Source: Alphaproteobacteria bacterium (lineage in GTDB: Bacteria > Pseudomonadota > Alphaproteobacteria > UBA828). From it: a stretch of 64,000 nucleotides of DNA. A program made the position numbers and the translations under genes. How positions within the stretch are numbered: position 1 is the stretch's first letter; each line of letters starts with the position of its first letter. The stretch spans positions 1 through 64,000 of the forward strand of contig WTGU01000131.1 of assembly GCA_011523425.1 (NCBI GenBank), written 5' to 3'. The notes below the pieces were generated by a model. The model searched no databases. It was not told the origin of the DNA and worked only from the letters and a program-made list of their open reading frames with translations. Below are positions 41,630-50,957 of the stretch, one piece after another.

Positions 41630-42187
41630 TCAGTTCAGCCGGTCGCGGACTTCCTGGATCGATTCCTCGATCATGCGGTCGGCGCGGCTCTCGTCGACGG
41701 TCTCGCCGATGAGCCGGCGCGCCGCCTCGATGGCCAGCACGGCGGCGGTCTGGCGCACCTCCCGCATGGCCTCTTCCTCGGCCCGGGCGATGCGCTGCTC
41801 CGCGAGCTCGGCGCGGCGCTTCATGGTCTCCTCGAGCGCGGCGCGGGCCTCGGCCGCGTGGCGCTCGGCCTCCGCCTTGGCGTGCTCGACCATCAGGCGC
41901 GCTTCTTCCTCGGCCTCCTGGCGCTTGCGCTCGTGCTCCGCCAGCAGCGCCCTGGCCTCGTCGCGCAGCGATTCCGCCTCGTCGAGCTCGTTCCTGATCC
42001 GCTCCGCCCGCTTGTCGAGGACCTCGGTCGCCTTCTTGTAGGCGGCGCGGCCGAAGGCGCCGAAGAAGGTGATGAAGGCGATGAGGATCCAGAAGTTGGC
42101 GTCCTCGGTGATCTGGCTGCCGACGACGACGAAGATGCAGGCGGCGACGATCACCCAGAACTCGGGCTTCCTGACCATCCTCTTCAT
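41630..42187 (-). CDS. atpF: ATP synthase Fo subunit b
   Basis: 185 residues: a membrane helix at ~9-28 (FWVIVAACIFVVVGSQITED, then ANFWILIAFITFFGAFG) followed by a long charged coiled coil to residue ~150. Peripheral stalk linking Fo to F1. Three bases separate it from the upstream b' gene. Last gene of the Fo operon. It carries two hydrophobic stretches at the N-terminus, slightly more than the classical b subunit. Confidence 0.92.
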   Translation of the reverse strand: MKRMVRKPEFWVIVAACIFVVVGSQITEDANFWILIAFITFFGAFGRAAYKKATEVLDKRAERIRNELDEAESLRDEARALLAEHERKRQEAEEEARLMVEHAKAEAERHAAEARAALEETMKRRAELAEQRIARAEEEAMREVRQTAAVLAIEAARRLIGETVDESRADRMIEESIQEVRDRLN

Positions 42188-42190
42188 GGC

Positions 42191-42682
42191 TCAGCGTCCC
42201 TCGCCAAGGCTCGCGTCGACCGCTGCGCGGGCGGCGGCCTCGGACGGCGCGGTGCCGACCAGCCGCTCGGTGGCTGCGCGCGCGACCTCGCCGGCCACGT
42301 CGCGCAGGCTGGCGAGCGCCTGGGCGCGCGTCTCCTGGATGCGCGCCTCCGCCTCTTCCGCCCTGGCGGCGAGATCGGCGTCGAGCTCCGCGCGGAGCGC
42401 GTCCGCCTCCGCTGTCAGCTTCGCCTGGGTCTCGGCGAGCACGCCGTGGGCGTGCGATCGCGCATCGGCCAGCGCCGCCTCGTAGGCCTCGAGCGCGGCC
42501 TCCGCCTCGCCCCTGGCGCGCTCCGCCTCGGCGAGATCCTCGTTGATCTTCGACTCGCGCGCCTCGATGACGCGCCGGATCCGAGGCAGGCCCACGGACC
42601 ACATGATCACCATGAGCGCGACGAAGGTGACGACCAGCCAGAAGATCTGGGGCGCGTAGTCCCCCATCTCGAGCTGTGGCAT
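42191..42682 (-). CDS. atpF': ATP synthase Fo subunit b'
   Basis: 163 residues: one membrane helix (FWLVVTFVALMVIMWSVGLP, ~13-32), PRIRRVIEAR, then a coiled coil to ~140. The b/b' pair in place of a b homodimer is typical of photosynthetic and many other alphaproteobacteria. Lies between atpE (44-base gap) and atpF. Confidence 0.92.
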   Translation of the reverse strand: MPQLEMGDYAPQIFWLVVTFVALMVIMWSVGLPRIRRVIEARESKINEDLAEAERARGEAEAALEAYEAALADARSHAHGVLAETQAKLTAEADALRAELDADLAARAEEAEARIQETRAQALASLRDVAGEVARAATERLVGTAPSEAAARAAVDASLGEGR

Positions 42683-42726
42683 CGGGCGCCTCCCGCCTTC
42701 GACTCAGGCCAGCCGGCGGCTGCCGA

Positions 42727-42966
42727 TCAGGAGCCGAACAGGATGATGAAGGCCATGACGAGCGCGAACAGCGCGATCGCCTCGGTCAGCGCGAAGCCCA
42801 GCAGCACGTTGCCGAACAGCTTCGGCGCCGCCGCCGGGTTGCGGCCCGCCGCCGACACGTAGTTGCCGAAGATGATGCCGATGCCGACACCGGAGCCGGC
42901 CACGCCGATCGTGGCGAGGCCGCCGCCAATGAGCTGACCGAGCAGTTTCGCTGCTTCTGCGTCCAT
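42727..42966 (-). CDS. atpE: ATP synthase Fo subunit c
   Basis: 79 residues, a two-helix hairpin. Helix 1 has [11 protein letters not shown], the polar loop is GRNPAA, helix 2 has the proton-carrying Glu62 in [17 protein letters not shown]. It forms the rotor ring. The Glu with no added polar ligands seen nearby favours protons. 58 bases after atpB. Confidence 0.97.
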
Positions 42967-43024
42967 GATCCTGTTTCCCTCGGTTTGTTCGGAGACTGTT
43001 TCGTGCGACCGGCTTCCAGTCCGC

Positions 43025-43798
43025 TCAGTGATGCAACTCGATCGCGTCGCGGATGTAGAGGCAGGTCAGAATGGTGAAGACGTAGGCCTGGAGCACGGCG
43101 ACGAGAAGCTCGAGCCCGTAGAGGGCGACGATGAACGCGAACGGCAGGACGCCGGCGAAGCTCAGGACGAAGACGAAGGCGCCGAACACGTGCAGGATCG
43201 AATGTCCCGCCATCATGTTGGCGAAGAGACGCACCGACAGGCTGATCGGCCGCGCCATGTAGGAGACCACCTCGATCGGCACCAGCAGCGGTGCCATCCA
43301 GATCGGCACGCCGGGCGGCAGGAAGAAGGTGAGGAAGCGGTGCTTGTGGATGACGATGGCGAGGATCGTCACGCCGACGAAGACCACCAGCGCGAACGCG
43401 AGCGTCACGATGATGTGGCTGGTGAAGGTGAAGGAATAGGGGATCAGCCCGAGCACGTTGCCGAGCAGCAGGAACATGAACAGGCTGAAGACGAACGGGA
43501 AGAATTTTTGCGCGCCGCGGCCGCCCACGATGTCGCCCAGCATTCGGGCGATCATCTCGTAGCTCATCTCGACGATCGACTGCAGCCTGCCCGGCACCAG
43601 GCGCCCGCGCCCCATGCCGAGCGTCGTGAGCGCCGTGATGATGATCACGGTCACGCACATCATCAGCGCGGAGTTGGTGAAGGATGCGTCGAAGCCGCCG
43701 AGGTCTATCTCGACGTAGCGGTTGATCGCGAATTGATCGAGCGGGCCGTGATGCGCATCGCCGTTGTGCCCGGCGGCGCCGTTCTCCGTCGTTGCCAC
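43025..43798 (-). CDS. atpB: ATP synthase Fo subunit a
   Basis: 257 residues, multi-spanning. The essential Arg is in [14 protein letters not shown]; other conserved parts are the [13 protein letters not shown] helix and the C-terminal [16 protein letters not shown]. It forms the proton half-channels against the c-ring. Eight bases after atpI, in the standard order atpI-B-E-F'-F. Confidence 0.97.
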
Positions 43799-43806
43799 TG
43801 GCCGTC

Positions 43807-44157
43807 CTACCCCTGGCTTCGCTCGTCCTGTCCCTCGTCACGCCGCTCCGCGTCAACGCGGGACAACGGCGTGGCCCCCATCCTCTGTGCCGCCCGAAAC
43901 GCGTTCAGGATGCCGGCCGCGATCCCCACGAAGATGAAGACCACGAACAGCCACGGCCTGGTACCGAGCCAGTCGTCGAGCAGCCAGCCGATGCCGCCGC
44001 CGACGGCCAGCGCGGCCGCCATTTCGATCGCGAGGTGCAGCGCTTGCCCAAGGCGCGTGCCGGGCAATCGTCCCCGATCGCCCGACCCGTCTTCGCCTCG
44101 GGCCTTGCGCAGCCGGGAGCCAAGATCCTCCAGGGACGGCCGTGGTTTGTCGTCCAT
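43807..44157 (-). CDS. atpI: ATP synthase accessory protein AtpI
   Basis: 116 residues: charged N-terminus (DDKPRPSLEDLGSRLRKARG), then two membrane helices (ALHLAIEMAAALAVGGGIGW and PWLFVVFIFVGIAAGILNAF). AtpI assists c-ring assembly or Mg2+ supply. First gene of the Fo operon with a good promoter 54-82 bases upstream. Confidence 0.9.
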   Translation of the reverse strand: MDDKPRPSLEDLGSRLRKARGEDGSGDRGRLPGTRLGQALHLAIEMAAALAVGGGIGWLLDDWLGTRPWLFVVFIFVGIAAGILNAFRAAQRMGATPLSRVDAERRDEGQDERSQG

Positions 44158-44322: not shown

Positions 44323-47300
44323 TCAGGCGCTCTCCCGCAGACGCACGGCGCGCTCCAGATCGACCGACACGAGCTCGGAGACCCCCTGCTCCACCATGGT
44401 GACGCCGAACAGCCTGTCGACGCGGGCCATGGTGATGCGGTGGTGGGTGACGACAACGAAGCGGGTGCGCGTCTCCTCGGCCAGCCTGGCGACGAGCGAG
44501 CAGAAGCGCTCCACGTTGGCGTCGTCCAGCGGGGCATCGACCTCGTCGAGCACGCAGAGCGGCGCCGGGTTGGTCAGGAACGCGGCGAAGAGCAGCGCGA
44601 TGGCGGTCAGCGCCTTCTCGCCGCCGGAAAGCAGCGAGAGCGACTGCGCCCGCTTGCCGGGCGGGCTCGCCACCACCTCGAGCCCCGCCTCCAGCGGATC
44701 GTCGGAATCGATCAGCGCGAGATGGGCCTTGCCGCCGCCGAAGAGCTCGGTGAAGAGGCGCCGGAAGTGCCCGTCGATGGTGCCGAACGCTTCCAGCATC
44801 CGCTCGCGCCCCTCGCGGTCGAGGCCGGCGATGCCCCGGCGCAGGCGGCCGATCGCCTCCAGCAGGTCGGTGCGGGAGTCCTGCATCTCGCGGATGCGCT
44901 CTTCGAGCTCGCCTGCCTCCTCTTCCGCCCGCAGGTTCACGGCGCCGATGTTCTCGCGCTCGCGGATCTGGCGCTGGAGCCTGATCTCCACCGTCTCGGC
45001 ATCGGGAAGCTCGTCCTCGGGCGCGAGCCCGGAGACCGCGTGGACCTCCGCCGGGGCCACGCCGAGGCGCTCCGTGATCTGCTGCGCGGCATGGTCCTCC
45101 GCGTGGCCGGCCTCGGTCACGAGACCCTCCAGCCGGGCCTTGTCCTCGCGGGCCGCGCCCAGCGCCGCTTCGGCCTGCCTGAGCGCGCCGGCCGCCGCCT
45201 TCGCCTCCTCCTCGGCCCGTGCCAGCGCATCGACGGCGCCGCGATGCGTCGCCTCCTCGCGCCCGATGGCGTCGAGCAGCTCGGCCCGCCTCGCCTCCAG
45301 CGCGGCCGGCCGGGCGTCGAGCGCGGCGCGCGCCGCCTCGGCCTCGTCCCGCCGTTCGGCGAGGTCCGCGAGGCGCTGCCGCGCGCTGCCCACGCGCGCC
45401 GCCCAGATCTCGCTCTCCCGCGCCAGCCCGGCGAGCCGGGTGCCGCGCCCGGCGGCGGCCTGGGCGACCCCATGGTGGCGGGCCGCCCGCTCCTCGTAGC
45501 GGCTGCGGAGAGCGGCCAGCTCGTCCCGCATGCGGGCGACCTCCGCCTTGCCGCCAGAGTCGTCCTCCGCCGGCAGGGCCTCCAGCGCGGCCTGCGCCAG
45601 GCGCTCGGCCTCGTCCGTCTCCGCGTTCTCCTGCCGGAGTCGCGTGACCGTCTCCTCCAGCGAGGAGAGGCGCGTCCGCGCCGCCGCCGCCTCGGCCGAG
45701 GCCAGGGCCTTTGCTTCCCGCGCCGTCCGCAGCGCGTCCGCCGCCTCGTCGGCAGCGGCGCGGACCCGGCCGCAGGCGGCCTCCGCCTCCTCCCTGGCCG
45801 CCGCCGCCGCCGCGACGGCCTGCTCTGCCGCGCTCTTGGCGCCCTCGGCCTCGGCGCAGGTTCCGGCCAGCGCCGCCAGCCGGTTCCGCGCCTCGAGCCG
45901 GCGGGCCGCCGCCGTCGCCGCGTCGGCGGCCACCGTGAAGCCGTCCCAACGCCAGAGCGAGCCGTCACGGCTGACGAGCCGCTGGCCGGGGCGGAGAGCC
46001 TGCTGCAGGCGGGCGCCCTCGGCTTCCGCCACAACGCCGATCTGCGCAAGCCGCGCCGCCAGCGCCTGCGGCGCTCGCACCGCGTCTGCGAGCGGTGAGG
46101 CTTCCGGCGGCAGCGGGGCTAGATCGGCGGCCCCGGCGAGAGTGCGCCAGTGCACCGGCGCGTCCTCGTCGGTGCCGGCCTGGAGGTCGTCGCCGAGCGC
46201 TGCGCCCACGGCGGCCTCGAAGCCCGGCTTCACCGTCACCCGGTCCCACAGCGCCGGGCCGCTGCCGGCGGCCGGTGCGGCGAGCAGCGCGGCCAGCGCC
46301 GCGCGCTCCGCCTCGTTGCGTGCCAGCGCGGCATCGGCCGTGCGCAGCTCCTCGCGGAGCGTCCGCTCGCGGTCCTCGGCACGGGCGCGGGCCGCCTCCG
46401 CCTCGCTGAGCGCCGCGCGGGCCTCCTCGAATCGTGCGGCGTGCGCACTTTCGGCGACTCGGGCCCCGGCCAGACGATCGTCCGCCGGCGAGCCCTTCTC
46501 CAGCGCCGCGCGCTCGTCGAGCGCCGCAGTCAGATCCCGCTCGAGCCGCGCACGCCGGTCTCTGGCGTCCCCGATCCGCCTGCCGAGGGCCTCGCGCTCC
46601 GCCTCCGCCCGAGCCTCCGCCTGGCCGAGCGCGGCGAGGCGCCGGTCCGCCGCCTCGACCTCGGCGCGCGCTTCCTCGCGGGCCGTGCGCGCCGCGGCTT
46701 CGGCCTCGGCATCGCCTTCGGCCTCGCGCGCGAGCCGGCCGCTCTCCTCGTCGAGGCGGCGGCGGGCGTCGTCGGCTTCGGCGGCGAGCGCTTCCTCGCG
46801 CCCGATGTCGGCGGCAATCTGGCTGCGCCGTGCCGCGTTCTCCTCACGGGCGCGGGCGAGGCGCTCCTCCTCCTCCGCCAGCCGCTCGTGCTCGATGCGC
46901 AGCCGCTGCAGGACGGCCGCGCGCTCGGTCTCGTGGCGGCGCCGTTCGGGCAGGATCGCCGCGGCATCGGCCTGGCGGCGCGCCGCCTCGGCGGCTTCGG
47001 CGGTAGCGCGCTCGACCCTGCCCGCCGTCTCTTCAGCCTGGCGCGACACCTCCTCGGCGCGGAGCCGGGCCGCGGTCCAGCGCACCAGCAGCAGCACCGC
47101 CTCGGTCTCGCGGATCTTGCCGGAGAGCCGCTTGTAGCGCCGGGCGTGGCGCGCCTGGCGCTCGAGGTCGCGAAGCTGCCCTTCGAGGGTGCCGATCACG
47201 TCTTGCAGGCGCTCGAGGTTGGTCTCCGCCGCCCTCAGCTTGAGCTCGGCCTCGTGGCGCCTCGCGTGCAGGCCGGTGATGCCGGCGGCCTCCTCGAGCA

Positions 47301-47787
47301 GGGCCCGGCGCTGCACCGGCTTCGCCCCGATGATGTCGCCGATGCGCCCTTGCCCCACCAGCGCGGAGCTGTGCGCGCCGGTGGCGGCGTCGGCGAACAG
47401 GAGCTGGACGTCGCGGGCGCGGACCTCGTTGCCGTTGAGGGTGTAGGTGGAGCCCTCGCCCCGCTCGATCCGGCGGGTCACCTCGATCTCGGCCGCCTCG
47501 CTCAGCGCCGGCGGCGCGGTGCGGTCCGTATTGTCGAGGCTGAGCGTGGCCTCGGCGAGGCCGTGGGAGGGGCGGCGGGCGGTGCCGCCGAAGATCACGT
47601 CCTCCATGCCGCCGCCGCGCACCTGGCGGGGCGCGGTCTCGCCCATGACCCAGCGCATCGCCTCGACGAGGTTCGACTTGCCGCAGCCGTTGGGGCCGAC
47701 GATCCCGGTGAGCCCGGGCTCGATGTAGAGCTCCGTCGGCTCGACGAAGGACTTGAAGCCGGCGACCCTGAGCTTCGTGACCTGCAC
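44323..47787 (-). CDS. smc: Chromosome segregation protein SMC
   Basis: 1154 residues. Walker A GIVGPNGCGKSNL near residue 30, two long coiled coils (~165-500 and ~650-930, very Ala/Glu/Arg rich) around a hinge (~510-640), the ABC signature LSGGEKALTAIALLF and Walker B PLCVLDEVDAPLDD near the C-terminus. The condensin ATPase dimer compacts DNA with ScpAB, whose genes are not here. 15 bases after the DsbA-like gene; smc-DsbA-DUF721-mutY is a recurring alphaproteobacterial order. Confidence 0.97.
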   Translation of the reverse strand: MQVTKLRVAGFKSFVEPTELYIEPGLTGIVGPNGCGKSNLVEAMRWVMGETAPRQVRGGGMEDVIFGGTARRPSHGLAEATLSLDNTDRTAPPALSEAAEIEVTRRIERGEGSTYTLNGNEVRARDVQLLFADAATGAHSSALVGQGRIGDIIGAKPVQRRALLEEAAGITGLHARRHEAELKLRAAETNLERLQDVIGTLEGQLRDLERQARHARRYKRLSGKIRETEAVLLLVRWTAARLRAEEVSRQAEETAGRVERATAEAAEAARRQADAAAILPERRRHETERAAVLQRLRIEHERLAEEEERLARAREENAARRSQIAADIGREEALAAEADDARRRLDEESGRLAREAEGDAEAEAAARTAREEARAEVEAADRRLAALGQAEARAEAEREALGRRIGDARDRRARLERDLTAALDERAALEKGSPADDRLAGARVAESAHAARFEEARAALSEAEAARARAEDRERTLREELRTADAALARNEAERAALAALLAAPAAGSGPALWDRVTVKPGFEAAVGAALGDDLQAGTDEDAPVHWRTLAGAADLAPLPPEASPLADAVRAPQALAARLAQIGVVAEAEGARLQQALRPGQRLVSRDGSLWRWDGFTVAADAATAAARRLEARNRLAALAGTCAEAEGAKSAAEQAVAAAAAAREEAEAACGRVRAAADEAADALRTAREAKALASAEAAAARTRLSSLEETVTRLRQENAETDEAERLAQAALEALPAEDDSGGKAEVARMRDELAALRSRYEERAARHHGVAQAAAGRGTRLAGLARESEIWAARVGSARQRLADLAERRDEAEAARAALDARPAALEARRAELLDAIGREEATHRGAVDALARAEEEAKAAAGALRQAEAALGAAREDKARLEGLVTEAGHAEDHAAQQITERLGVAPAEVHAVSGLAPEDELPDAETVEIRLQRQIRERENIGAVNLRAEEEAGELEERIREMQDSRTDLLEAIGRLRRGIAGLDREGRERMLEAFGTIDGHFRRLFTELFGGGKAHLALIDSDDPLEAGLEVVASPPGKRAQSLSLLSGGEKALTAIALLFAAFLTNPAPLCVLDEVDAPLDDANVERFCSLVARLAEETRTRFVVVTHHRITMARVDRLFGVTMVEQGVSELVSVDLERAVRLRESA

Positions 47788-47802: not shown

Positions 47803-48447
47803 CTAGGAGCCCTGGAGCAGACGGTCGATGTGGCGGGTCAGCGCGTCGTAGTTCATCTTGCCGTCGTACTTCTCGCCGTTGACGATGATCGTCGGGGTCG
47901 ACGACACGTCGTGTTCGTCCTGGGCCATCCCCATCGAGCGGAAGATGGAGTCTTCGAGGTCCTTGTCCGCGAGACAGTCCTCGAACCGCTCCCGGCTCAC
48001 CCCGCCCAGCTCGCCGAGCTGGACCAGCTCGTCCATGTAGCGGCTGCTGCGCGCCCAGTCGTTGAAGGTCTGGAACAGGACATCGACGAAGGTGAAGTAG
48101 CGCTCGGGCCCGGCGCAGTGGGCGAGGATGGCGGCATGAAGGGCCGGCGCGTTGAGCGGGAAGTCGCGCGCCACGTAGCGCAGCTTGCCGGCATCCACGT
48201 AGTCCGGCTTAAGGCGGTTGTAGATGTTCTGATGGAACCACTGGCAGTGGGGGCAGGTGAGCGAGAAATACTCGATCAGGGTGACCGGCGCGTTCGGATC
48301 GCCCTGGGCCAGATCGCCGGGCCTCTCGCCGATGCCGGCGCCGAGCGCCCGCGTCGGCGCCACGAGGGCGGCGACCGGAAGGGCCGGAATCGCCGCCATG
48401 GCCCCGAGCAGAAAACGCCGCGAAATCACTGTCCTGCCCTCATCCAT
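47803..48447 (-). CDS. DsbA-family thiol:disulfide protein
   Basis: 214 residues. N-terminal export signal with SRRFLLGAMAAIPALPVAALVAP (twin Arg, Tat-like), thioredoxin fold with active site Cys65-Pro-His-Cys68 (SLTCPHCQWFH) and cis-Pro in STPTIIVNG. Periplasmic oxidase or isomerase of protein disulfides. The ATG at 48447 overlaps the methyltransferase stop by 8 bases; a GTG at 48429 (VISRRFLL) is an alternative start that keeps the signal. Confidence 0.92.
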   Translation of the reverse strand: MDEGRTVISRRFLLGAMAAIPALPVAALVAPTRALGAGIGERPGDLAQGDPNAPVTLIEYFSLTCPHCQWFHQNIYNRLKPDYVDAGKLRYVARDFPLNAPALHAAILAHCAGPERYFTFVDVLFQTFNDWARSSRYMDELVQLGELGGVSRERFEDCLADKDLEDSIFRSMGMAQDEHDVSSTPTIIVNGEKYDGKMNYDALTRHIDRLLQGS

Positions 48448-49204
48448 TGATGTCGCATCCGAGGAAGCTCCGCCCCTTCTGCCTGCACGCCTCCATGACC
48501 GAGAAGGAGCCCGCCGCCGGATCGACGACCACGTCGCCCGGATTGCTGACCGCCTCGATCAGCGCGGCCTGAAGGCCGACCGGCTTGGGGTGGACGCGGT
48601 TGCGGGGCTCGACCGCCTCGCTCCACACGTCGGGGATAGTGTGCACCTTCCACACGCCCTTGGCCTTGCGCGGCGCCTTCTGCAGCACGACCAGGTATTC
48701 GCTCGCCCGCCGGGTGCGATAGCCCATGCCGATCCGCTTCTTGTGCCAGGTCACCATGTCCACGATGGCGAGCGCGGTGCCCGCGAGCCAGTCGCCGAAG
48801 CCGGTGCAGAGGTGATACTTGTCCGTCCACAGGAAGAGGTGTCCGCTCGGCATCAGGCAGCGGTCGAGCTCGCGGATGAACGACGGGATCTCGTCGGTCA
48901 TCTGCGGCAGGGCGGCGCGGCCTGCGCCGCGGCGCACGCCCTCGTTGCCGTAGGCGAGATGATCGAGCACGCCGCGATACTGCGGGTCCAGGAAGGCGAC
49001 GGGGACGGCGGCGTCCGGCAGCAGGCCGAGGAAGCGGAGCCCCTCCATCTTGAGGCGGCTGTCGAAGGCCAACCCCACCGGTAGTATGAGTGGCGGCTGG
49101 TCCAGTTGCCGCACGGAGGAGAACACCGAGTCCCTTCCGGCACCCGGCGGGGCTTCCTGCGACGTGACGGCCTCGATGACCATTCCGGCGCGGACTGTAC
49201 GCAC
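48440..49204 (-). CDS. Orphan site-specific DNA methyltransferase (beta-class order)
   Basis: 254 residues. Motif IV is VAFLDPQYRGVLDHLAYGNEG (DPQY where DPPY is usual), a central target-recognition-like region (KKRIGMGYRTRRASEYLVVLQK), HPKPVGLQ, and motif I VVDPAAGSFSVMEACRQKGRSFLGCDI at the end. This order matches the beta group of N6-adenine/N4-cytosine methylases; it is not CcrM-like in detail. No restriction partner is nearby. An ATG at 49183 is an alternative start, favoured by a TATACT box at 49223-49218. Embedded between DUF721 and DsbA genes. Confidence 0.85.
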   Translation of the reverse strand: MRTVRAGMVIEAVTSQEAPPGAGRDSVFSSVRQLDQPPLILPVGLAFDSRLKMEGLRFLGLLPDAAVPVAFLDPQYRGVLDHLAYGNEGVRRGAGRAALPQMTDEIPSFIRELDRCLMPSGHLFLWTDKYHLCTGFGDWLAGTALAIVDMVTWHKKRIGMGYRTRRASEYLVVLQKAPRKAKGVWKVHTIPDVWSEAVEPRNRVHPKPVGLQAALIEAVSNPGDVVVDPAAGSFSVMEACRQKGRSFLGCDING

Positions 49205-49314
49205 GGGCGCGGCGAAAAGTATAGTTCGTCTGATCCCGGCCTCGCCCGGTGGCGCACGCGTGCCCCGGACCGCCGCTCTTTCAGTCGAAATACATGCGGT
49301 TTATCAGCGGGTTG

Positions 49315-49779
49315 CTATTTGCGCGGGCGCGTGAGAACGGCGCGCCCCAGGGCCGCGAGGGCCGCCTTCAGGCGGGCGTCCCGGGTGGCGCCGACCGCCG
49401 ATTCGACGCGCGCGAGCGACTCCGAGTCGGTTTTCGCCCGGGCCGGCCTCTGTTCGCCGCCCGTCACGGGCGCCCGCGGCGCCCGGTTGACGTAGGCGAT
49501 CCGGGTTACCGCGCGGTAGCCGTAGTGCACGGCGATCCGCTCCAGGATCTGGGGCTCGAGATGTTGCAGCTCGACCGCGACCGGGCCGGCGACGCAGACC
49601 CGGAGCGTGCCGTCCCGTCCCAGGCGCTCGGGCCACGAGCATTCGGCGACGGTCTCGCCCACGATCGCGGGCCACGCGCCGGCGATCCCCGCCGCCGCGA
49701 GCCCCCGCGACTCGAAGGACCTGGCGGCGATCCTGCCGATCAGCGAGGAGAGAGGCTGCGCCTGGCGGGCCTTGCGCAT
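49315..49779 (-). CDS. DUF721 (DciA-like) protein
   Basis: 154 residues from ATG at 49779 (ATG at 49848 gives 177). N-terminal LSSLIGRIAARSFESRGLAAAGIAGAWPAIVGETVAECSWPERL followed by a beta-rich KH-like half (GTLRVCVAGPVAVELQHLEPQILERI). DUF721 includes DciA, the DnaB helicase loader, though short alphaproteobacterial members are uncharacterised. Divergent from mutY. The 110 bases after it contain a somewhat AT-rich stretch with a TATACT box. Confidence 0.85.
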   Translation of the reverse strand: MRKARQAQPLSSLIGRIAARSFESRGLAAAGIAGAWPAIVGETVAECSWPERLGRDGTLRVCVAGPVAVELQHLEPQILERIAVHYGYRAVTRIAYVNRAPRAPVTGGEQRPARAKTDSESLARVESAVGATRDARLKAALAALGRAVLTRPRK

Positions 49780-49856
49780 GTCCGGGGCCGGGAGTCGCGG
49801 AGTCAGGGCTACGGTGTACGCCCATTGCCGCCCGCTGTGAAGCGGCACGGCCGCCG

Positions 49857-50957
49857 GTGAGCAAGGCGCCGATGTTAGAGCCGAAGCCGAAGCCCGACTC
49901 GCCCGCGCGGCTGGCCCGGCTGCTGCTGGACTGGTACGACCGCCACCGCCGCCGCCTGCCCTGGCGCGCCGAGCCCGGCGAGGCGCCGGACCCCTACCGG
50001 GTCTGGCTCAGCGAGATCATGCTGCAGCAGACCACCGTCCCGGTCGTGGCCGGCTATTTCCGGCGCTTCCTGGAGCGCTGGCCGACGCTGGAGGCGCTCG
50101 CCGCCGCCGAGCTCGACGAGGTACTCCACGCCTGGCAGGGGCTCGGCTACTACGCGCGCGCCCGCAACCTGCACGCCTGCGCGCGGGCCGTGCTGGCCGA
50201 TCACGGCGGGCGCTTCCCGGCCGACGAGAAGGCGCTGAAGGCGCTGCCGGGGATCGGGCGCTACACCGCCGCCGCCATCGCGGCCATCGCCTACGGGCGG
50301 CCGGCGACCGTGGTCGACGGCAATGTCGAGCGGGTGATGGCCCGCCTGCGCGCTGTCGAGACGCCGCTGCCGGCGGCCAAGCCCGCGCTGCATGCGCTCG
50401 CCGCCGCGCTCACTCCCCGCACCCGGCCCGGCGACTACGCGCAGGCGCTGATGGACCTCGGCGCCACGGTCTGCACGCCGCGCAAGCCGGGCTGCCTCGC
50501 CTGCCCCTGGCAGGGCGCCTGCGAGGGGCGGGCGCGGGGCCTCGCCGAGAGCCTGCCGCGCCGGGCTCGCAAGCGCCCGCGTCCGCTGCGCCACGGCGTC
50601 GCCTTCTGGCTGATGCGCGCAGACGGCGCCGTGCTGCTGCGGCGCCGGCCGGAGGAGGGCCTGCTCGGCGGGATGATCGAGCTGCCGAGCACGCCCTGGC
50701 GGGCGGAGCCCTGGGCGCTGGCGGAGGCGGAGGCCCACGCGCCCGAGCCGCGTCCCTGGCAGGCGCTGCCGGAGCCGGTGCGGCACGGCTTCACCCATTT
50801 CGAGATCGAGTTCCTGGTGGCGGCCGCCGAGACCGACGGCGAAGGCCTCGACGGGGGCGGCATCTGGTGTCCGCCCGCCCGCTTCTCGGAGCACGCGCTG
50901 CCGGCGCTGACGCGCAAGCTGGTCCGCCATGCCGCGCGCCATCGCCCCGGCCCGTAA
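49857..50957 (+). CDS. mutY: A/G-specific adenine glycosylase MutY
   Basis: 366 residues from GTG at 49857. Catalytic Glu53 (SEIMLQQT), HhH LPGIGRYTAAAI and Asp154 (VVDGNVERV), a 4Fe-4S cluster with Cys206-X6-Cys213-X2-Cys216-X5-Cys222, and a C-terminal NUDIX-like domain (~245-360) that recognises 8-oxoG. Removes A opposite 8-oxoG. Divergent partner of DUF721 with only a short shared regulatory gap. Confidence 0.97.
   Translation: MSKAPMLEPKPKPDSPARLARLLLDWYDRHRRRLPWRAEPGEAPDPYRVWLSEIMLQQTTVPVVAGYFRRFLERWPTLEALAAAELDEVLHAWQGLGYYARARNLHACARAVLADHGGRFPADEKALKALPGIGRYTAAAIAAIAYGRPATVVDGNVERVMARLRAVETPLPAAKPALHALAAALTPRTRPGDYAQALMDLGATVCTPRKPGCLACPWQGACEGRARGLAESLPRRARKRPRPLRHGVAFWLMRADGAVLLRRRPEEGLLGGMIELPSTPWRAEPWALAEAEAHAPEPRPWQALPEPVRHGFTHFEIEFLVAAAETDGEGLDGGGIWCPPARFSEHALPALTRKLVRHAARHRPGP

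Follow-up and report, generated by a model that had tools for sequence, protein, structure and literature searches.

HhaII, a restriction-modification (R-M) system of Haemophilus haemolyticus, has a methylase whose motif IV reads DPQYR, and it is the only enzyme with this motif that we found in print, as far as the accessible part of its description goes (PMC4190342). The available portion of a second source describes this methylase, M.HhaII, as recognising GANTC, the same site as CcrM, as lacking the C-terminal domain of CcrM and as being more than 300-fold less active on single-stranded DNA (PMC10359602). CcrM is regarded as a core alphaproteobacterial cell-cycle regulator, and its special enzymology lies in strand separation via the C-terminal domain. 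The genes gcrA and ccrM are reported to be consistently both present or both absent (PMC3885167), and a weaker association is also noted (PMC2877005); going by the former, a genome with GcrA and without CcrM is unusual.

Here we describe a methylase gene that lies, in a window of 64,000 nucleotides of alphaproteobacterial DNA, within a gene block that carries ccrM in relatives. It probably encodes a domesticated HhaII-like Type II R-M methylase, directed at the adenine of GANTC, which most likely took over the role of a lost CcrM in its genus, as seems to have happened repeatedly elsewhere. The gene and its surroundings comprise the following features:

44323..47787, minus strand: smc (TIGR02168, 823.6 bits against a cut-off of 567)
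47803..48447, minus strand: DsbA-like thioredoxin-fold gene, downstream of the methylase gene, with a start probably at GTG 48429
48440..49183, minus strand: HhaII-like beta-class DNA methyltransferase of 247 residues (open reading frame, Pfam, PADLOC, motifs, fold model and PDB matches)
49192..49224, minus strand: box CTATAC-N18-GTACAG-TCC, conserved in the genus, with a putative function
49315..49848, minus strand: DciA (DUF721), upstream of the methylase gene (PF05258, 60.4 bits)
49857..50957, plus strand: mutY (TIGR01084), whose far side holds ccrM in CcrM-bearing relatives and none here

The first-pass annotation placed a methyltransferase at 48440-49204. An open reading frame of 254 residues indeed reaches up to GTG 49204 on the minus strand, and its product matches the beta-class profile N6_N4_Mtase (PF01555) with 54.8 bits, above the cut-off of 26.7; however, because the alignment of the genus orthologues begins at about residue 6-8 and the conserved start is ATG 49183, the protein is probably 247 residues long, so that the gene stands and its extent probably does not. 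The beta-class motif order claimed for it is confirmed, in that DPQY (motif IV, residues 66-69, continuing as DPQYR) precedes motifs X and I of the Rossmann-like core, with KP..LQ and DPAAGS close to the C-terminus. The replacement of DPPY by DPQY is likewise real, but it is not peculiar to this gene, being present in 81/81 relatives (the best 80 of 89 found in a genome scan, plus one Campylobacter coli plasmid protein); a defective or unique motif is thereby ruled out. An AlphaFold2 model (pLDDT 79, pTM 0.79), in which residues 1-19 and 71-96 are mostly of low confidence, matches MboIIA, CcrM, M.BceJIV and RsrI in a Foldseek search of the PDB.

All members of the proposed smc-DsbA-DUF721-mutY block are identified by profile matches as SMC, a DsbA-like protein, DciA (the DUF721 protein) and MutY. 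Downstream of smc, on the same strand, genes at 41630-44157 presumably represent the start of an ATP synthase operon (subunits I, a, b and b-prime). The 8-base overlap reported between the methylase gene and the DsbA-type gene exists between the open reading frames, the latter being called at 47803-48447, but it is probably a start-codon artefact from picking the first ATG: in 5/5 genus orthologues (L038, L039, L040, L041 and L056) dsbA begins 10 bp past the methylase stop, at a MISRR codon, and the matching codon of the window is a GTG (48429). As a separate observation, the 3' part of dciA contains two adjacent GANTC sites (window 49418-49428, GACTCGGAGTC), kept in all five genus members with an alignment spanning these positions; the pair could reflect coding constraint or be a regulatory pair.

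The TATACT box noted just upstream of the methylase gene is present at 49213-49225 (minus strand), with one match in the window against 0.03 expected, and is a presumed -10 element. It forms part of the longer box CTATAC-N18-GTACAG-TCC, an imperfect inverted repeat. The longer box stops 8 bp short of the methylase ATG and is confined to loci of the window's genus (28 of the 249 loci fetched, representing 7 genomes), where it also precedes a broken methylase copy in genome G003 and where the intergenic DNA preceding it is hardly conserved. No such box was found near the methylase gene of carriers outside the genus, and GTAC, suspected as the methylase target from its occurrence inside the box, was dropped for this reason.

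PADLOC assigns the methylase to MTase_II PDLC03271 (6.2e-80) and the gene adjoining it in two relatives to REase_II PDLC03487; the model lengths of 228 and 227 presumably fit the HhaII proteins, and a search of NCBIfam and Pfam found no label for the family that gives an R-M type with a named specificity. The best 80 of 89 relatives are spread over Alphaproteobacteria, Gammaproteobacteria, Chloroflexota, Poribacteria, Bdellovibrionota and one Actinomycetota MAG. Record titles of a few name sponges (Spongia, cymbastelae), and we take most of the other MAG series among them to derive from sponges as well. Within the set of 81 loci, an intact PDLC03487-family nuclease, the alignment of which retains the EPD ... 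ELK version of the PD-(D/E)XK pattern, lies directly downstream of the methylase gene in 14; it is broken, shortened or frame-shifted in five (L052, L078, L084, L104, L108), and 62 have none of that nuclease family. Host phyla are intermixed in the methylase tree, where the label "no nuclease" changes 11 times, with at least 9 of these changes forced by starred branches; paired and solitary states have therefore interchanged often. The window methylase groups with five genus orthologues in a single clade (98/93). A search for the cognate nuclease family found none in its own genome or in 7/8 genus genomes, which bears out the description of the enzyme as an orphan as far as that family goes and rules out a cognate-family nuclease acting in trans. 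The methylase is thus solitary in this sense and kept vertically in the genus, and HhaII-like membership accordingly refers to the methylase family and not to a working R-M system.

Several members of the wider family have other arrangements. The conjugative Campylobacter coli plasmid pCC42 (L037, 4007-5372) carries a methylase and a nuclease of the PDLC03271 and PDLC03487 families, the methylase being 49% identical to that of the window. Six Poribacteria loci (L060, L068, L071, L077, L082, L088) have in common, downstream of the methylase gene, a gene for about 420 residues that contains TSPPYG and looks like a second DNA methylase. In L066 and L080 this position is taken by a common gene of 229 residues, which we assume to resemble a restriction nuclease.

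Because HhaII has DPQYR and M.HhaII recognises GANTC, the target of the window methylase is most likely the adenine of GANTC. This is the CcrM site, and a link with CcrM was therefore tested, using the profile NF050803. Since no genome, the Caulobacter control included, reaches its curated cut-off of 830, matches were compared by bit score; at E 1e-60 only the Caulobacter genome matches among 14 controls. The window methylase scores 23.7 bits over 48 residues and is hence not a CcrM, true CcrMs of its family scoring 575-625 bits, with E values of 1.4e-151 or lower for full-length matches. The methylase is carried by 7/8 genus genomes, the eighth, G004 (62% complete), having neither it nor CcrM, and no full CcrM was found in any of the eight (NF050803, at most 72 bits). 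In contrast, a full CcrM is found in 12 of the 13 genomes that make up the rest of the window's family, the exception being G009 (88% complete). Counted over the whole family, CcrM occurs in none of 7 carriers and in 12 of 14 other genomes (Fisher 3.1e-4; this and the following Fisher tests take genomes as independent, with shared ancestry and habitat uncontrolled and many genomes being incomplete MAGs, and since the genomes are related the values overstate independence).

The same exclusion is seen in other families. In that of G083 (a Silicimonas MAG; Rhodobacteraceae-type), CcrM is present in 111/120 genomes, one of them partial (G126), and every one of the five genomes with a HhaII-type methylase belongs to the nine that lack CcrM (Fisher 6.6e-7, or 1.3e-4 without two carriers known beforehand). 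Both a full CcrM and a HhaII-type methylase are missing from four genomes of this family, G127, G200, G206 and G223, which represent either incomplete genomes or a third solution. Among the six Defluviicoccus MAGs of the family of G071, five carry the methylase and no CcrM and the sixth has CcrM and no methylase (Fisher 0.17).

Outside the genus, 46 of 74 carrier loci were searched for CcrM and GcrA, namely 31 from Alphaproteobacteria, L089 and L096, which were kept apart, and 13 others; the 28 left out are L110 and L117, which by record title share their genomes with L073 and L109, and 26 mainly from Chloroflexota and Poribacteria. None of the 31 alphaproteobacterial carriers, nor L089 or L096, has a full CcrM (best E 3.1e-27). 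In total, full CcrM is absent from 43 distinct carriers (7 of the genus, the 31, L089, L096, and G119, G163 and G213, the last three being tested only at E 1e-60), and carriers of a methylase-nuclease pair of the family are likewise without it. A gammaproteobacterial MAG, G076 (the L070 genome), combines a HhaII-type methylase with a CcrM-like gene of 526 bits and many other beta-type methylases. Habitat may confound the exclusion but cannot fully account for it, as ccrM is present in Ruegeria sp. KLH11, a symbiont of sponges (PMC3692519).

GcrA is retained. Its profile matches 8/8 genus genomes with 99.9-110 bits and 25 of the 31 alphaproteobacterial carriers outside the genus (no match in G070, G079, G084, G087, G092 and G093), as well as L089 and L096, which are counted apart because calling them alphaproteobacterial from GcrA would be circular; it matches none of the 13 other carriers. 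Among the controls it matches Caulobacter and also Sulfolobus, so that single weak GcrA matches are not trustworthy. The presence of GcrA in genomes that lack CcrM would be accounted for if another GANTC methylase had replaced CcrM.

The position of the gene relates it to ccrM in another way. In relatives the block runs rnhB, ccrM, mutY (on the opposite strand), DciA, DsbA, SMC, with DciA adjoining DsbA, and rnhB directly precedes ccrM on the same strand in 28/30 ccrM loci (more than 300 aligned residues; two genomes contribute two loci each). Seven of the 8 genus genomes have rnhB (it is missed in G004), with no ccrM adjoining it, and a search at E 0.05 of the regions fetched around rnhB and the methylase gene revealed no remnant of ccrM. 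The HhaII-type methylase gene has DciA and DsbA as its neighbours and so occupies the half of the block that does not hold ccrM in relatives. Two MAGs (L061 and L086) have a complete methylase-nuclease pair beside rnhB, in the usual place of ccrM and in opposite orientation, separated from the end of rnhB by between a few and some tens of bases.

Resident methylase genes also appear to have been entered by later pairs. In the genus member G003 (L007, 1217-2970; G003:C74) the resident gene is interrupted by a second methylase and a nuclease, pieces matching residues 1-70 and 224-247 flanking the complete second methylase (57-59% identical). In L094 (3633-6891), about 2.5 kb with a methylase-nuclease pair separates two pieces, one matching residues 3-82 and the other residues 90-247, and in L046 (5001-6529) an end piece of 27 residues lies behind such a pair, on one side only. 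As judged from these sequences, it is as if a methylase-nuclease pair had landed in a resident solitary methylase gene in G003 and L094, and perhaps in L046.

The solitary gene is under purifying selection, with a constraint about that of the SMC head: pN/pS is 0.21-0.30 for the methylase (window against five orthologues; the G003 methylase, at 0.39, is another allele and was left out of the range), compared with 0.21-0.29 for the SMC head, 0.28-0.33 for MutY, 0.33-0.41 for DciA and 0.36-0.46 for DsbA (window against six orthologues).

The main rival to a replacement of CcrM is that the solitary enzyme is no more than a relic or antidote which is not found alongside CcrM: it would shield its host against HhaII-like R-M elements present in the community, without any part in the cell cycle, and, as a resident CcrM gives the same protection, both the R-M pair and the antidote would be unfavoured where CcrM is present. 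We consider this rather unlikely, although it would fit the frequency of methylase-nuclease pairs among carriers (the 14 intact and five broken or partial cases out of 81), the lack of CcrM in those carriers too and the entry of a pair into the resident gene of G003; by itself it leaves unexplained why GcrA is kept without CcrM, why constraint is as strong as on the SMC head and why the gene has been retained vertically for so long in the genus without a nuclease. Conversely, the CcrM-like gene of G076, the four G083-family genomes without either enzyme, the failure to find GcrA in 6/31 alphaproteobacterial carriers and the match of the GcrA profile in Sulfolobus count against replacement, as do the GANTC counts and the other beta-type methylases described next.

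That the methylase has a target other than GANTC, with GANTC methylation gone or made by another beta-type methylase, seems quite improbable. Other beta-type methylases, scoring up to 72 bits against the CcrM profile, do occur in 7/8 genus genomes, and site counts give no clear signal: GANTC observed/expected ratios of 0.96 and 0.92 in two genus genomes, compared with 0.80-1.16 in three CcrM-bearing relatives, indicate no clear depletion, and there is no clear enrichment between genes. However, those other methylases match the CcrM profile in the shared core only and not in the C-terminal domain, and a different target would leave the exclusion between methylase and CcrM in several families unexplained. 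The suggestion that the gene is a domesticated phage enzyme is not borne out and now appears highly improbable. Relatives do occur on 21 viral contigs, but the best viral identity is 60%, against 69% for a Dehalococcoidia MAG and 67-68% for other Alphaproteobacteria (cellular matches outside the genus, among the best 80 of 89), and of the 44 matching records from named phages, those best by coverage are 26-27% identical; with its closest relatives cellular, phage domestication was rejected.

The epigenetic role that the first-pass annotation suggested for the orphan is supported and likely, and replacement of CcrM gives it a likely course. A methylase-nuclease pair would arrive by horizontal transfer, the newcomer methylase would make CcrM redundant and CcrM would be lost; the nuclease would then decay, and the methylase would be retained, since transcription through GcrA depends on methylated GANTC. 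The mark would be read by GcrA, and expression of the methylase would be timed, perhaps via the upstream box. The same sequence of events seems to have taken place in several other alphaproteobacterial lineages. A bolder version, plausible though tentative, is that HhaII-like R-M elements repeatedly capture alphaproteobacterial cell-cycle methylation, the host coming to depend on the newcomer methylase through GcrA, and that later pairs insert into the resident methylase gene (as in G003, L094 and perhaps L046), destroy the host's antidote and become indispensable. Among the literature hits listed, none links HhaII-type methylases with CcrM loss. If CcrM has been replaced several times by an ordinary R-M methylase acting on its site, the GANTC mark and GcrA outweigh the special features of CcrM, and cell-cycle functions are open to takeover by selfish defence elements.

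Compared with solved beta-class methylases, the enzyme has the same core fold as MboIIA, M.BceJIV and RsrI (Foldseek probability 1.00, TMq 0.53-0.61), of which the first two are also matched at the sequence level; identity is 17-22% in the structural alignments listed, their partners differ, and we take their target sites to be other than those of the window methylase. With CcrM it shares the presumed target GANTC, the co-occurrence with GcrA and the gene block mutY-DciA-DsbA-smc, but it is not orthologous, being about 25% identical to one CcrM of the family and lacking the C-terminal domain. It is likened to M.HhaII through the DPQYR motif, as given in the available description (PMC4190342), and, like M.HhaII in the accessible part of its own source (PMC10359602), is small and without the CcrM C-terminal domain. 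As in the HhaII R-M system, a nuclease gene lies next to relatives of the window methylase; unlike that system, the window methylase is solitary, chromosomal and conserved in its genus.
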